From: Candidatus Nitrospira neomarina
GTDB lineage: Bacteria; Nitrospirota; Nitrospiria; Nitrospirales; UBA8639
Direction: 5' to 3'
Assembly: GCF_032051675.1 (NCBI RefSeq)
Contig: NZ_CP116968.1
Coordinates: forward strand, 4,085,001-4,149,000
DNA: 64,000 nucleotides
Part shown: positions 31,887 to 38,314 of the stretch, piece by piece
Layout: every line of letters begins with the position of its first letter
Position numbering within the stretch: position 1 is the first letter of the stretch
Program-made: the position numbers and the translations under genes
The notes under the pieces: generated by a model
What the model was told of the DNA's origin: nothing
The model's input: only the letters and a program-made list of their open reading frames with translations
The model's database searches: none

Positions 31887-32990
31887 GTGGATCAGACCGA
31901 TCCTATGGTGCGTCTCCTCCTTGAAGGAATTCATGCGCAGGTGTTTCCTGGTGCGGTCTTGTTCGTTCGGCACCAGGGCTATCTCCGGATGCATCATGCT
32001 GTGGGTCTTACCTCCGGACTTCCGGATGCCTATCCTGTCCAGCTTCAGACCATCTACGACCTCGCTTCCCTCACTAAGCCTCTGGCAACCGCATCGGCTA
32101 TTCTGCTCCTGGTGCAGGATGGGCATCTGGATCTATCAACGCCTATCGGGACGTGGCTCCCTGAGACTAAAAATTTTCCATTAGGCCGGGCGCGTCTCAA
32201 GGACGTGCTCTCTCATCAAAGCGGCCTTCCAGCCTGGCGTCCGTTTTACCGGTCTTTCCCTCCTGCTCTCCTCTCAGATGTCCCATCCCGTCAGGAACGA
32301 GCCACGGCATTTCTGGAGTTAATCCTCAAGGAACCGATTGAAGCAGGGACACACCCTAAAAGCCTCTACAGTGATTTGGGCTATATGGTGCTTGGGTTTA
32401 TCGTGGAGCGGATCACGAATCAATCATTGTCTGATTTTTGTCAGAGTCGGATCTTTGGTCCCTTACATGCGTGCCCTCTTGGCTATCGAAGGACGAACGT
32501 GGCGGCAATATTGGACTCATCGATTGGTGGATGCGCACCCACTGAACAGGATCCATGGCGTGGGCGACTTTTGCAGGGGGAGGTGCATGATGAAAACGCG
32601 TTCGCGCTGGGAGGCATTGCCGGGCACGCCGGACTGTTTGGAACTGCCGAAGCCGTAGGACAGATTACCCAAGCCTGGCTGAAAAGTTATAAAGGACACT
32701 CCGGTGTATTTGATTCTCACCTGGTGAAAGAGTTTGTGGCGGCACAGTCCGGAACCAGTTGGGCCTTAGGCTGGGATACGCCCTCCCAACCCTCCTCCTC
32801 GGGTCAGTGGTTTTCGCCTGAATCGTTCGGCCACTTGGGATTTACCGGCACGAGTATCTGGATCGACCCGACTCGTGACCTGGAAGTTATTTTTCTTTCC
32901 AACCGAGTCCATCCAACCCGGGATAATCAAGCCATCAAAACCTTTCGCCCCAAATTGCATGATGCGATTATTCAGGAATTGGGGGCATGA
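31887..32990 (+). CDS. Serine hydrolase, class C beta-lactamase-related
   Basis: 367 residues, beta-lactamase/transpeptidase-like fold. The nucleophile motif is ASLTKPL (SxxK) near residue 60, a Tyr motif YSDLGYMVLG lies mid-protein, and GHLGFTGTS near residue 315 replaces the KTG triad. No clear signal peptide, so it may be cytoplasmic or start elsewhere. Such enzymes act as esterases or D-Ala peptidases; true beta-lactamase activity is not implied. It follows divIVA by 24 nt. Confidence 0.85.
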   Translation: MDQTDPMVRLLLEGIHAQVFPGAVLFVRHQGYLRMHHAVGLTSGLPDAYPVQLQTIYDLASLTKPLATASAILLLVQDGHLDLSTPIGTWLPETKNFPLGRARLKDVLSHQSGLPAWRPFYRSFPPALLSDVPSRQERATAFLELILKEPIEAGTHPKSLYSDLGYMVLGFIVERITNQSLSDFCQSRIFGPLHACPLGYRRTNVAAILDSSIGGCAPTEQDPWRGRLLQGEVHDENAFALGGIAGHAGLFGTAEAVGQITQAWLKSYKGHSGVFDSHLVKEFVAAQSGTSWALGWDTPSQPSSSGQWFSPESFGHLGFTGTSIWIDPTRDLEVIFLSNRVHPTRDNQAIKTFRPKLHDAIIQELGA

Positions 32991-33099: not shown

Positions 33100-33310
33100 G
33101 AGCATTGCCGGGTTTCGTCCCGGCAGCCGAGCCACTTTTGTTTCGGCAAAAGTAGCCAAAACCAGTGACGCCCTGCCTGGTCAGATCGGATAGGGCGGAC
33201 GCGGGTCTTCGGAGGGCGGGCTAACTCGCTCTGCTCAAACAAAGCCCGCCGGGGAATGAGAGCGTCCGCCCCAGGGCCAGTCAGCAGGCGTCAGGGAAAA
33301 GGAAGTGGAG
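33100..33310 (+). repeat. Dispersed nested-palindrome repeat, copy B
   Basis: Hairpin 1 is at 33107-33124 (gccggg/cccggc) and hairpin 2 at 33134-33153 (acttttg/caaaagt). Then come three nested stems: 33166-33176 with 33284-33293 (one bulge), 33193-33202 with 33262-33271 (10 bp, perfect) and 33215-33222 with 33243-33250 (8 bp, perfect). It is close to copy C through a gaaaaggaagtgga tail. Confidence 0.85.
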
Positions 33311-33385: not shown

Positions 33386-33973
33386 TTATTCGAACGTGAT
33401 TGTCATGAGTAAATCGCCGGGTAGCTCCTCACCTCGAAAAGCCTTTTCATTGATTGCTTGAATTTCAAGTGGAGGTACCTTACACGAACCATCCTGCCAC
33501 AAGCGCTTCGCAATGGGTGACCCAACCGCGGCGACCACACTGTCAAAAACAAAATAGTTACGAACTTCGATATTGGCTTCCATGACGGCCTTCAGGCCTT
33601 CGGCAATGACAGCCACGGAATCGCCGAAGGTGTGCCGGTTGTCAGGCTCATATCCGCAGTGGTGCGCCTCAAAGAGCCAGTCATGGACAATATATGCAGG
33701 TGCATAACCCCAAGGGGAATAGCCTTCAATGCCCCACAAGAATCTGGGGATCGAGCCGCCGTCTGTGTACATCGGGCCCGGTCGGATTGACTGACCGTTT
33801 GCCCGGATCAGCATAAAGGGATTGTCTTTGCTAGGGAGAAATAAAAAGTAGTCGTTCTTGACCCATCGGACATCGAGCGCACCAGCAAACTTACTCTCTT
33901 GAGTCTCGCGGTATGTTTGACTGGCACAGCCGGAGATCACGATGGTGATGAGAAAGAGGATTCCTAAACGCAT
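33386..33973 (-). CDS. DUF1353-like lipoprotein
   Basis: 195 residues. Signal peptide MRLGILFLITIVISGCAS with a lipobox Cys at about residue 16, so an envelope lipoprotein. The central TDGGSIPRFLWGIEGYSPWGYAPAYIVHDWLFEAH segment (given here only in outline: positions about 90-125) matches the DGGSIPR and HDWLY pattern of DUF1353. Function unknown; the family is common near phage and mobile DNA. It lies between repeat copies B and C. Confidence 0.6.
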   Translation of the reverse strand: MRLGILFLITIVISGCASQTYRETQESKFAGALDVRWVKNDYFLFLPSKDNPFMLIRANGQSIRPGPMYTDGGSIPRFLWGIEGYSPWGYAPAYIVHDWLFEAHHCGYEPDNRHTFGDSVAVIAEGLKAVMEANIEVRNYFVFDSVVAAVGSPIAKRLWQDGSCKVPPLEIQAINEKAFRGEELPGDLLMTITFE

Positions 33974-34074: not shown

Positions 34075-34283
34075 GAGCGTTGCCGGGTTTCGGCCCGACA
34101 GCCGAGCCACTTTTGTTTCGGCAAAAGTAGCCAAAACCCATGACGCCCTGCCTGGCCGCATCGGATAGGGCGGACGCGAGCTTTTGGAGGGCGGGCTAAC
34201 TCGCTCCGCTCAAACAAAGCCCGCCAGGGGATAAGAGCGTCCGTCCTTGGCCAGTCAGCACGCGTCAGTGAAAAGGAAGTGGA
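34075..34283 (+). repeat. Dispersed nested-palindrome repeat, copy C
   Basis: Same order and orientation as copy B. The first hairpin (from 34082) has one changed base, the second hairpin cttttg/caaaag is identical to that of copy B, then tgacgccctgcc, agggcggacgc, gggcgggct, agcccgcc, gcgtccgtcc and a final cgtcagtgaaaaggaagtgga tail. The minus-strand frame through it is open and near-identical to that in copy B, which explains why such repeats are often called genes. Confidence 0.85.
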
Positions 34284-34566: not shown

Positions 34567-35490
34567 CTAACCTCTGAGGCGGGTCAGTAGTTGTGCTTGT
34601 GAGGCAAGAACATCAGCCAAAGAGAGCCCGAGAATCTGCGCGACGATTATCGTCGTGACCCGCACAAAAAGTTCAGCATCATGAATTGAAGCTTCATCAA
34701 CAATACGACCTGCATGGACCAAATCATTTCGTATTTTCACGAAATTTTTGATACCCTTTCTATCCTTCATGTTAACCCGATCCATTATTTGATATTGGGT
34801 GAGAATGAACGAGATCTTTTCAAATGCAGGCAGCTTGATTATTTGCCCATCCGACAACCAAGATTGATTATGAAGTGTGAAAAGGATTTCCCATATGGTC
34901 CAGCATGTAATGAACGAGGTTTCAATGATTTGCCTCTTGCAGGCAGAATTAAATAGAAGCAAGAAACGCCCCTGTCCATATTCCTTTTGCCATGACTCAG
35001 TAAGCATCTTGTTATATACGTGCTCGATATTTTTTTGGAATCCAACGTTGCATTGGTTGCCGTGTTCATCTTCACCCTTTTCATATCTAATAGCGCTTGC
35101 AAGCCCGAAGGGACGTTGACGAGAATCAGCTGTTATAACTCCCTTACCTTTTTCTATCGGCTGGGGCTCAGCAAAAACATCCCGGTGTGTGAAAATTGAT
35201 AAAAGGAGCAATATGTCATTTAATGCCGTTGCCTTTTTGTTTCCCCACTCAATAACTGGCTTCATTTCTTTTGACGGCAAATCGAGGTGCGCTGTAATAG
35301 CATGTGTCCCTGTGTTTATGGGCTGGCTAAATTCCCTATTGAAGGTAAGGAGGTGTTGTAAGGCCTGAACTCTTTCCTTATATTCATCAACCCTACTGAA
35401 AACATATCCATAAATCGTTAGCTGCTGGCACCTTTGTGGAAAAACCAAATTATAGACCCATCTTGCACCTTTATTAGTTCCTTTTTTCAT
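34567..35490 (-). CDS. HEPN-motif protein of unknown function
   Basis: 307 residues, visibly more A+T-rich than the surroundings. No full-length family was recognised. The C-terminal helical region contains KIRNDLVHAG, with Arg254 and His259 spaced as in the R-x4-H active site of HEPN ribonucleases. A long N-terminal part (about 1-200) has no obvious motif. Isolated, flanked by repeats and gene remnants, with signs of acquisition. An Abi/ApeA-like defence nuclease is one possibility; a plain hypothetical is the alternative. Confidence 0.6.
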   Translation of the reverse strand: MKKGTNKGARWVYNLVFPQRCQQLTIYGYVFSRVDEYKERVQALQHLLTFNREFSQPINTGTHAITAHLDLPSKEMKPVIEWGNKKATALNDILLLLSIFTHRDVFAEPQPIEKGKGVITADSRQRPFGLASAIRYEKGEDEHGNQCNVGFQKNIEHVYNKMLTESWQKEYGQGRFLLLFNSACKRQIIETSFITCWTIWEILFTLHNQSWLSDGQIIKLPAFEKISFILTQYQIMDRVNMKDRKGIKNFVKIRNDLVHAGRIVDEASIHDAELFVRVTTIIVAQILGLSLADVLASQAQLLTRLRG

Positions 35491-35582: not shown

Positions 35583-35965
35583 TTAGCTATTTGCAGACTT
35601 TGTATTGTAAATGATATTCTCATCGGTGATAGCATTCGAATTAATTTCATTAAGGGTAAGGTACCCATAAAAACCCCCATTTTCATCAACTATAACAGGA
35701 GGATTTGAACCAATAGCATTGCATGGACTGTCAGATGAGAAATCCGACCCATACTTTCCTATGTCATTAAAAATGCTAGTTGATGAAATATAAGAACCAT
35801 ATTTCCCGATGTCATTATGAACTGAATCAGATACTACATCAGAACAATTGAGACATCCCAATAAACATCATGATTGTTCCCGCCAAAAATCAACAGCTTC
35901 TTCTCAGCTAATGCCATAGTTGGCAATGCCAGTATTAACCAAACAAGAAATTTGATCGTTCCCAT
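35583..35965 (-). pseudogene. Secreted S-x3-N-x2-G repeat protein, frameshifted
   Basis: Starting at ATG 35965 (after an AGAGGGGGA site), the frame encodes a signal peptide and KLLIFGGNNHDVY. The continuation GCLNCSDVVSDS is in another frame, which reaches the stop at 35583. Adding one T at about 35860-35862 joins them into about 127 residues (L-G-C-L-N-C). The second part carries repeats of the form NDIGKYGS and ends PPVIVDENGGFYG. The family is recalled from several bacteria as a small secreted protein of unknown role. Either a real mutation or an assembly error. Confidence 0.6.
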
Positions 35966-36240
35966 TATTCCCCCTCTTACTACCAAACAGGGAGTCATAA
36001 GCGGCTGCGACACGGGATTGGGGCCCACCAAACTATTCAAGATTATTCTCAAACGTATTTTCCATCCGCATCGTTGATTCTTAGTCAACTGCAGAAATAT
36101 GTCAACTTACTGGATGTCTTTGGCTGGTCTTTTTGTCCAGACCTCTGGGTCATGAAGAATTGAGGTATCCGTGAAAGGGAGATCGGCGTCTCTTTTATTA
36201 GAGACCCTGAAAGGTTCGTCTTCCATCATGGTCGACGCCT

Positions 36241-36412
36241 GCCGGCTGGCTGGCCTTGTTTGAGCCTTGCGAGTCGTGCCACCCTCCGAAAGCTCGCGTC
36301 CGCCCTATTCAATTTGGCCAGACGGGGCGTCAATGGTTTTGGGGCCTTTTGCCGAAACAAAAGGCCCTCGTCTGCCGGGGCGAAACCCGGCACCACAGAC
36401 AATCACGTTAAT
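36241..36412 (-). repeat. Dispersed nested-palindrome repeat, copy D (inverted)
   Basis: Read on the minus strand it gives GCCGGGTTTCGCCCCGGC (36374-36391), then gccttttgtttcggcaaaag-type sequence, ttgacgccccgtctggcc, tagggcggacgcgag and gctcaaacaaggcc. It is closer to copy A in the CGTCTGGCC block. The 3' part of the palindrome (beyond 36241) is missing. The short frames across it are rejected as genes. Confidence 0.75.
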
Positions 36413-36566
36413 ACGAAAGTTGGGAAAATTAGTGCAATGCGTTTCTCCCCTCAAGGTGTTTTTTACTGGAAACCCCCAAGGTAGATTGCCGAGACACATC
36501 GTAAAGCTATAGGGCCAGAACCATATACTCTGTATGATCCCCAAAGTAATTCGTCTCACGTTTTCC

Positions 36567-36763: not shown

Positions 36764-37570
36764 ATGCCAGACTTCAGTGAGCTAAAGAAGAAACATCGAG
36801 CCACCTGGGCAGCCGGTGACTACAATCAGATCGCCCAAGGGATCCAAGCAGTGGCTGACCATGTCGTGCGCAGCGGGCGCATCCGAGCCGGCGAACTCGT
36901 GCTCGACGTGGCCTGCGGAACCGGAAATACGGCACTCATGGCACGCGCGCGAAACGCGGCGGTCACGGGACTGGATCTTACTCCGGAACTCCTCGATTTT
37001 GCGAAGAAGCGTGCCGCGGAAGAGGGATACGTCGACATCACCTGGAAGGCAGGAGACGCGGAAGATCTGCCATTTCCTGACGGTATCTTTGATGTCGTCG
37101 TCTCGTCCTGCGGGCTGATGTTCGCGCCTGATCAACAGAAGGTGGCCAGCGAGGTCGCACGGGTGACAAAGCGTGGTGGACGTATCGCGATTCAGGCCTG
37201 GACGCGGGAGAGCGGAGTCGGGCGCATGTTCACCGTCACAGGGAAGTATGTCCCTCCACCGGCTGACGTTCCGAGTCCGTTCCTGTGGGGCGACGAAGAG
37301 CAGGTGAGGAAGTGGTTCGGTTCGTCGTTCCGGGACTACCGCTTCGAACGGTACGACTGCCCGGAATATGCGGACACTCCCGAACAAATCGCCGATCTGT
37401 TCATCGACCGGTACGGACCCACTCACCGGGCCTATCATGCACTGCCTGCCGAAAAAGCGGCTCTCTTCCGCAAAGAACTGATCGATCTTTACCGTGGTTA
37501 CGTGACGCCTGCCGACGGCAAGGTGCGTTGGGGCCGTGAGTACCTCCTGACCCTTGGGACGCGTGCATGA
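36764..37570 (+). CDS. Class I SAM-dependent methyltransferase
   Basis: 268 residues. Motif I is VLDVACGTGNTALMA, followed by GLDLTPELLDFAKK and an acidic GDAEDLPFPDGIFDVVVSS region typical of UbiE/Methyltransf_11 enzymes. The substrate cannot be told. Base composition is G+C-rich compared with the HEPN gene nearby. It is framed by the SnoaL fragment upstream and the glycosylase downstream. Confidence 0.82.
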   Translation: MPDFSELKKKHRATWAAGDYNQIAQGIQAVADHVVRSGRIRAGELVLDVACGTGNTALMARARNAAVTGLDLTPELLDFAKKRAAEEGYVDITWKAGDAEDLPFPDGIFDVVVSSCGLMFAPDQQKVASEVARVTKRGGRIAIQAWTRESGVGRMFTVTGKYVPPPADVPSPFLWGDEEQVRKWFGSSFRDYRFERYDCPEYADTPEQIADLFIDRYGPTHRAYHALPAEKAALFRKELIDLYRGYVTPADGKVRWGREYLLTLGTRA

Positions 37571-37627: not shown

Positions 37628-38314
37628 ATGCCAATGCCATTGCCTGCCAGGGCACGCCGAAGCCTGACCCCCGCCTCACTTCGCCAAGGGGCACGGGCAC
37701 TGGCGGATGTGGATTCTGATCTGGGTGCTGTCCTGGATCGCTTGGGGGAGCCTCCGATGTGGGGGCGGGAACCAGGATTCCCTGCTCTCATTCAGATTAT
37801 CCTCGAGCAGCAGGTGTCGCTGGCGGCCGCCCGCACGATGTACCGGCGGCTTTCCAGCCATCTGGGTGGGATGACTCCGGAAGCGGTCTATGCCATTGAA
37901 TTGAACGGGTTGAGGGATGTCGGACTGACGAGGCAGAAGGCCGGCTATTGTTTTGGTCTGGCGGAGCGCATACTCGACGGTAGTCTTGATCTTAGTTCGG
38001 TGGCCAACGGTCCGGATGATCGGGGGCGTCAGATCTTATTGGCGGTTCCCGGGCTCGGGGCCTGGAGCGTGGACATCTATTACCTTATGGCACTTGGACG
38101 TCCCGATGTCTGGCCTCAAGGGGATTTGGCCCTGGCCGTCGCGCTCCGTGAAGTGAAACGCCTTACTGACCTCCCGACGAAAAATGAGCAGAAACTCTTG
38201 GCCAGACATTGGGTGCCGTGGCGATCGGTTGCAGCGCGAATCTTGTGGGCGCATTACCTTGCTGCGCGAGGTCAGTACCTGCCGGAAAACAATGGGATGC
38301 GTATGTTGGGCTAG
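37628..38314 (+). CDS. DNA-3-methyladenine glycosylase II (AlkA-like, HhH-GPD)
   Basis: 228 residues. Helix-hairpin-helix with the Gly/Pro-rich loop VPGLGAWSVDIYYLMALG, then catalytic Asp166 within WPQGDLALAVAL. The N-terminal part holds EQQVSLAAARTMYRRL. It removes alkylated purines in base excision repair. No AraC-type or Ada domain. It follows the methyltransferase by 57 nt. Confidence 0.85.
   Translation: MPMPLPARARRSLTPASLRQGARALADVDSDLGAVLDRLGEPPMWGREPGFPALIQIILEQQVSLAAARTMYRRLSSHLGGMTPEAVYAIELNGLRDVGLTRQKAGYCFGLAERILDGSLDLSSVANGPDDRGRQILLAVPGLGAWSVDIYYLMALGRPDVWPQGDLALAVALREVKRLTDLPTKNEQKLLARHWVPWRSVAARILWAHYLAARGQYLPENNGMRMLG

Follow-up and report, generated by a model that had tools for sequence, protein, structure and literature searches.

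The genome of Candidatus Nitrospira neomarina contains, within the window analysed here (the whole stretch of 64,000 nucleotides at positions 4,085,001 to 4,149,000 of contig NZ_CP116968.1, part of a 4.80 Mb genome in a single contig), a gene of 307 codons whose product has a C-terminal HEPN-like region and which lies in a chromosomal interval that holds recognised defence systems in related genomes. The explanation that we somewhat favour is that this gene codes for a single-protein HEPN ribonuclease, an anti-phage effector that would work like Tha or ApeA and that would reside in a core defence hotspot. The C-terminal half of the protein would be the ribonuclease, with R254-N255-x3-H259 as its active site, and the N-terminal half would keep the effector silent and sense infection. 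Upon sensing of a phage component, the protein, acting as a dimer, would cleave RNA of the cell or of the phage and so halt the infection, in the manner of Tha and ApeA. The gene itself would have come as cargo into a chromosomal defence hotspot in which one cargo repeatedly replaces another and whose edges are two inverted copies of a dispersed repeat. A defence role is probable, because the gene occupies a slot that holds known virus-defence systems in related bacteria, and its operation as a single-gene abortive RNase is marginally favoured; the positional evidence for defence is stronger than the motif evidence. If this is right, an environmental bacterium that is not among the usual model organisms would have a compact phage defence made of one protein, half of which is a sensor that no library recognises.

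The HEPN-type gene and its domain assignment

The open reading frame starts with ATG and runs intact through 307 codons, and its G+C content at the three codon positions (0.50/0.34/0.42) is coding-like. Its overall G+C is 0.419 versus 0.510 for the whole window, a value as low being found in 24 of 1262 windows of equal length. An earlier sequence-only reading had pointed to this frame, to the motif R254-N-D-L-V-H259 and to a base composition unlike that of the neighbours, all of which were borne out (Table 1). By itself the motif proves little, because shuffling the protein 10,000 times yields R-x4-H in 43.1% of cases and R-N-x3-H in 2.8%, and R-x4-H alone was rejected as proof of a HEPN domain.

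Table 1. Features of the HEPN interval and its surroundings (positions in the window)
Feature	Positions	Strand	Basis
Left anchor gene of the hotspot, presumably serine-hydrolase-like	31887..32990	+	present in 16/20 genus genomes
Dispersed repeat, copy 1	33106..33309	+	core CTTTTGTTTCGGCAAAAG
DUF1353 gene, situated between the first two repeat copies	33386..33973	-	PF07087, 22.7 bits, cut-off 22.5
Dispersed repeat, copy 2, at the left edge of the HEPN interval	34081..34283	+	90% identical to copy 1
3' fragment (53 codons) of a further gene, lacking an in-frame start codon	34350..34511	-	ORF reading
HEPN-type ORF, 307 aa	34567..35490	-	ORF call, codon-position G+C, Pfam
C-terminal HEPN-like region, residues 179-282	34645..34956	-	two sub-threshold Pfam HEPN matches, union
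R254-N-D-L-V-H259, predicted RNase active site	34714..34731	-	sequence; family definition in PMC3710099 (excerpt)
N-terminal half, residues 1-178, unrecognised, possible sensor	34957..35490	-	no family match
Small secreted-type protein gene, frameshifted remnant with short repeats, just upstream of the HEPN-type ORF	35583..36088	-	ORF pair
Conserved right flank of the hotspot, where homology to four other genomes begins	36076..36430	+	DNA comparison
Dispersed repeat, copy 3 (inverted), at the right edge of the HEPN interval	36246..36392	-	81% identical
SAM methyltransferase gene right of copy 3, further local cargo	36764..37570	+	PF08241, E 3.5e-25
Right anchor gene, presumably DNA-glycosylase-like	37628..38314	+	present in 4/20 genus genomes

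Members of the HEPN superfamily carry an R-x4-6-H motif, typically with a polar residue after the arginine (PMC3710099, here and below in excerpt), and R254, N255 and H259 agree with this description. Many HEPN families have in addition a second acidic residue, often within E-x3-[KR]. As read from the sequence, the predicted first helix contains E201, with T at position +4 from it, and an E-x3-K is present at residues 165-169, outside the profile match.

The best Pfam match is PF18735 (HEPN_RiboL-PSP), over residues 179-277 with an E-value of 0.0021, followed by PF18739 (HEPN_Apea) over residues 229-282 (E 0.14). Neither reaches its gathering score (18.4 versus 28.4 bits and 13 versus 24.4 bits, respectively), and beyond these two no Pfam model matches the protein at E<=10; no PADLOC model does so at E<=10, and nothing was found in NCBIfam or PHROGs. 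Within the phylum, PF18735 is matched above its cut-off in 11 of 198 genomes, the present one not being among them. A HEPN profile made independently from HEPN proteins found within the phylum (11 of 21 loci, picked by eye) ranked the protein first of 501 when set against 500 shuffles, and hhalign with this profile gave a score of 22.0, over the motif region only, versus a maximum of 18.2 in 100 shuffles. AlphaFold2, run without relatives, gave a pLDDT of 34 for the whole protein; the C-terminal 138 residues were modelled as entirely helical at low confidence (pLDDT 54.6), and a Foldseek search of PDB and viral structures with these low-confidence models returned no match at E<=0.001.

The matches of PF18735, PF18739 and the independent profile all fall on the motif and its helices, and on this comparison of sequences the ORF very probably carries a HEPN domain. 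The earlier HEPN call is thus moderately supported: two Pfam HEPN models lie at the right place and the profile score exceeds that of 500 shuffles, but both Pfam scores are below cut-off. It is quite unlikely that the protein is an unrelated orphan with R-N-x3-H there by chance (in which case it would still probably be hotspot cargo), since two related HEPN models and a separately built profile converge on the same segment, even if the 2.8% of shuffles with this pattern, the Pfam scores, the lack of structural support at E<=0.001 from the low-confidence models, and a local alignment with Tha-1 whose score is reached by 34 of 300 shuffles would all be compatible with it. From the unrecognised N-terminal part it had also been suggested that this may be an undescribed HEPN architecture; residues 1-178 are indeed matched by no family in Pfam, PADLOC, NCBIfam or PHROGs, but the overall anatomy is that of Tha.

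Searches for homologues returned the protein itself alone, both from two overlapping phylum sets, of 245 and 395 genomes, and from a class set of 269 genomes that overlaps with them. Among 20 genomes of the genus nothing but the gene itself was found below E 0.06, and two weak matches (E 0.06 and 0.2) within long frames of 1119 and 747 aa were taken as unrelated. In plasmids and phages tblastn detected no relative at E<=0.01, and the one plasmid record and six phage records that appear at E<=10 were judged to be chance matches. One of these, a region of a crAss-like phage, gave a phmmer E-value of 0.005 among 6795 ORFs, but it had been chosen via an earlier search and overlaps a very long annotated phage protein. 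Pattern searches of viral and genome contigs led to a single short match by tblastn, out of frame with the long ORF at that place, and one further pattern match judged to be due to chance, and otherwise no relative; these scans require near-exact short matches, and distant relatives in other phyla may therefore well exist.

A chromosomal interval with changing defence cargo

The gene had been described as lying between two repeat copies and gene remnants. The flanking repeats are real, but there are three copies in all, and both remnants, the frameshifted ORF pair and the fragment without start codon, were confirmed. The repeat was rejected as a known RNA family (no Rfam match at E<=1).

Four related genomes, those among 59 searched whose best listed DNA matches include the right flank from 36075-36076, were compared over the same interval from repeat to inverted repeat. 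Instead of the HEPN-type gene, one contains Gabija (G191; GajA E 1.7e-195, GajB 3.9e-119), another bSEFIR (2.9e-122) with an unrecognised 319-aa ORF (G260), a third a SNF2 helicase with HerA (3.8e-228) and SIR2 (1.7e-113) (G259), and the last an unrecognised 264-aa gene (G258), so that three of the four contain a PADLOC-recognised defence system at this place. Homology of each of the four to the window starts at the right junction, around 36076, which is identical in the five sequences compared, whereas on the left side it ends just past the repeat in most copies. The junction sequence contains two GTCAACT blocks and has, among the loci searched, a close match at the hotspot site only, for which reason it was rejected as a general repeat end.

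The site was followed further through its left anchor gene, in a small survey (15 other genomes with this anchor, many with broken contigs; the contig of G256 stops at the anchor and in G247 the anchor is at a contig edge). PDC-S06 (1.5e-168) lies beside the left anchor in G260, on a separate contig whose order is inferred; G248 contains SoFic (4.2e-50) and a PIN gene; G246 has a type I REase fragment (2.5e-32) and ParE; G249 has a DUF433/DUF5615 pair and a DUF5677 gene, and G261 an FG-GAP protein, the last two genomes with no PADLOC match. At E<=1e-30, the PADLOC scan of the cargo gave no match in G258, G249 and G261. Five further genomes were read by eye only: the site is almost empty in G253, contains a Sel1-like gene in G252 and a PIN/antitoxin-like pair in G257, and shows no clear cargo in G254 and G245. 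The two features by which a hotspot is recognised are both present, namely a shared core flank (the left anchor in 16 of 20 genomes of the genus, the right anchor in 4 of 20, and the junction on the right identical in all five sequences compared) and defence systems that differ between genomes, with PADLOC matches at E<=1e-30 in five of the eight other genomes scanned (G191, G260, G259, G248 and G246). The location within the same interval as these systems supports the defence role that had been suggested from the sequence.

Non-defence genes are also found at the hotspot, among them DUF1353 (present at the same site in G259, and in part in G260), methyltransferase and FG-GAP genes. Large FG-GAP repeat proteins of 862 and 889 aa in G261 (L067 2249-4837) and G259 (L043 1521-4190) are related to each other and are not defence-like. 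In G260 an ORF beside bSEFIR (L041 2432-3391, minus strand, start codon uncertain) contains R-N-F-M-E-H and may be another R-x4-H protein, and a TIR-like protein, identified by eye, directly adjoins the right anchor gene (L079 856-1632, plus strand). The unrecognised cargo gene of G258 (L042 3679-4473, plus strand) and the marginal DUF5677 gene of G249 (L074 3255-4022, plus strand; 27.2 bits, cut-off 27.1) are candidate unreported defence genes. The hotspot could serve as a route to discovery, in which unrecognised genes between the same repeats in relatives, for example those of 264 aa in G258 and of 319 aa beside bSEFIR in G260, are candidates.

HEPN toxins are common in toxin-antitoxin pairs (PMC3710099), and relatives have TA-like genes at the hotspot (DUF433/DUF5615 in G249, ParE in G246 and PIN in G248). 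The gene could accordingly code for an addiction or stress toxin, not a phage sensor, whose antitoxin has been lost, is located elsewhere or is unrecognised. We consider this improbable: as noted from the sequence at the outset, no antitoxin partner is obvious, there being no other intact ORF of at least 80 aa between the repeats; an unrestrained toxin should be lost or broken, yet the frame is intact; and the protein has 307 aa, with an N-terminal half of about 178 residues. Minimal HEPN toxins are smaller than a protein with an N-terminal half of this size. That the gene is instead a hotspot passenger whose product has a HEPN fold but acts neither as an RNase nor in defence, such as a regulator or an RNA-binding protein, is improbable, given that R, N and H are all kept and that the exact interval mostly holds defence systems in relatives (3/4), although non-catalytic HEPN proteins exist (PMC3710099) and non-defence genes share the site.

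The dispersed repeat across the genome

With one mismatch allowed, the repeat core CTTTTGTTTCGGCAAAAG is present in 50 copies in the genome, while the reversed control sequence gives 0. The copies are clustered, 41 of the 50 having another within 5 kb, versus a mean of 4.7 and a maximum of 16 in 1000 random placements. Two of the 15 clusters surround islands of type I restriction-modification and Septu (PtuA 6.2e-170 and 3.4e-202; PtuB 6.3e-82 and 2.7e-99), with McrBC in one island and an Mrr-type gene in the other. In these islands (L114, C1:1418001-1436000; L116-L117, 1607000-1636000) the repeats are on the minus strand at the left and on the plus strand at the right, opposite to the arrangement in the window. 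One cluster adjoins Lamassu (LmuA 2.5e-139, LmuB 1.2e-239); this pair (L120 92-2980, C1:4262091-4264979), in which LmuA has a Cap4-type nuclease, lies about 1.4 kb from a repeat pair. That the repeats always mark defence genes was rejected, as several clusters, among them those at 1.90 and 4.45 Mb, lie next to ordinary genes (read by eye).

At E<=1e-60, PADLOC models match at least 13 of 120 repeat-region proteins versus at most 4 of 120 control proteins (counts taken from family tables without member names), a difference with a Fisher p of 0.04 (0.03 without RtcR-type regulators), in which genes of one operon are not independent. The repeat-region set comprised 129 ORFs of at least 200 aa and the control set 154 ORFs from 20 random regions, 120 being scanned from each, and one control region contains the repeat core with two mismatches. 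This excess in the repeat regions gives modest support to a link with defence. One set of repeat-region proteins (A5) includes one PADLOC match to CARF1--CARF_HEPN at 5.6e-160 and one to PDC-S02 at 1e-92, for which the guessed members are L150 9243-10502 and L122 100-3549.

A broader proposal, which for the present appears rather unlikely, is that the dispersed repeat, clustered here and found across the genus, is an exchange device for defence genes, with the HEPN-type gene as one cassette bearing a new sensor domain. Repeat copies (here an inverted pair) would border modular cargo, and Gabija, bSEFIR, SIR2-HerA, Lamassu, type I RM with Septu and the HEPN-type gene would be swapped in and out there, either through recombination or with the help of a mobile element of undescribed type. 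Were this true, the other unrecognised genes that such repeats enclose would be defence systems still to be reported.

Relation to known systems

Single-gene defence by HEPN proteins and core defence hotspots are both already known (PMC11087260 and PMC10250203, both in excerpt). The HEPN-type gene would add a member whose N-terminal half is recognised by no library, and the literature searched on Nitrospira defence, islands and repeats gave no description of a defence hotspot with repeat borders in this group.

In HEPN RNases, which are usually dimeric, R and H serve to cleave RNA independently of metal ions (PMC3710099, PMC11087260). The closest anatomical match to the HEPN-type protein is Tha, the tail-activated HEPN anti-phage system of the Staphylococcus phage 80alpha (gp03). 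Tha-1 has 301 aa (versus 307 aa here), an unrecognised N-terminus on which AlphaFold2 also failed, and a C-terminal HEPN domain at residues 184-296 (versus about 179-282) with the motif R265NSIMH270, which shares R-N-x3-H with RNDLVH, and it acts as one effector gene; it is triggered by a phage tail protein and is a non-specific RNase that requires H270 (PMC11087260). The sequences have no significant similarity (BLASTP E 0.18, single comparison); the alignment pairs both motifs with an overlap confined to the motif region, and membership of Tha by sequence was rejected because it is no better than alignments with shuffles. Tha is, moreover, a prophage gene with the Ith inhibitor, whereas the present ORF belongs to a chromosomal hotspot, and no partner of this kind was seen for it. 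We propose, therefore, that the HEPN-type protein is an RNase activated by infection, with a putative sensor half, by analogy with Tha and not by membership.

The protein also resembles ApeA in having a C-terminal HEPN region, with a weak match to PF18739 there, and a larger N-terminal domain, but ApeA-NTD1 has about 300 aa and consists mostly of beta strands (PMC3710099), as compared with about 178 aa in the present case, and membership of ApeA by sequence was rejected on the Pfam score. HEPN_RiboL-PSP is the best profile match, yet its score, too, is below the cut-off (18.4 versus 28.4 bits). As for the locus, it is similar to the hotspots cDHS1 and cDHS2 of Pseudomonas aeruginosa, which have fixed core-chromosome flanks, defence systems that differ between genomes, cargo of lower G+C and many unknown genes (PMC10250203). 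It differs from them in belonging to another phylum and in that its cargo intervals are bordered by dispersed repeat copies, as an inverted pair at the HEPN interval, and this repeat-bordered arrangement is the part most worth following.
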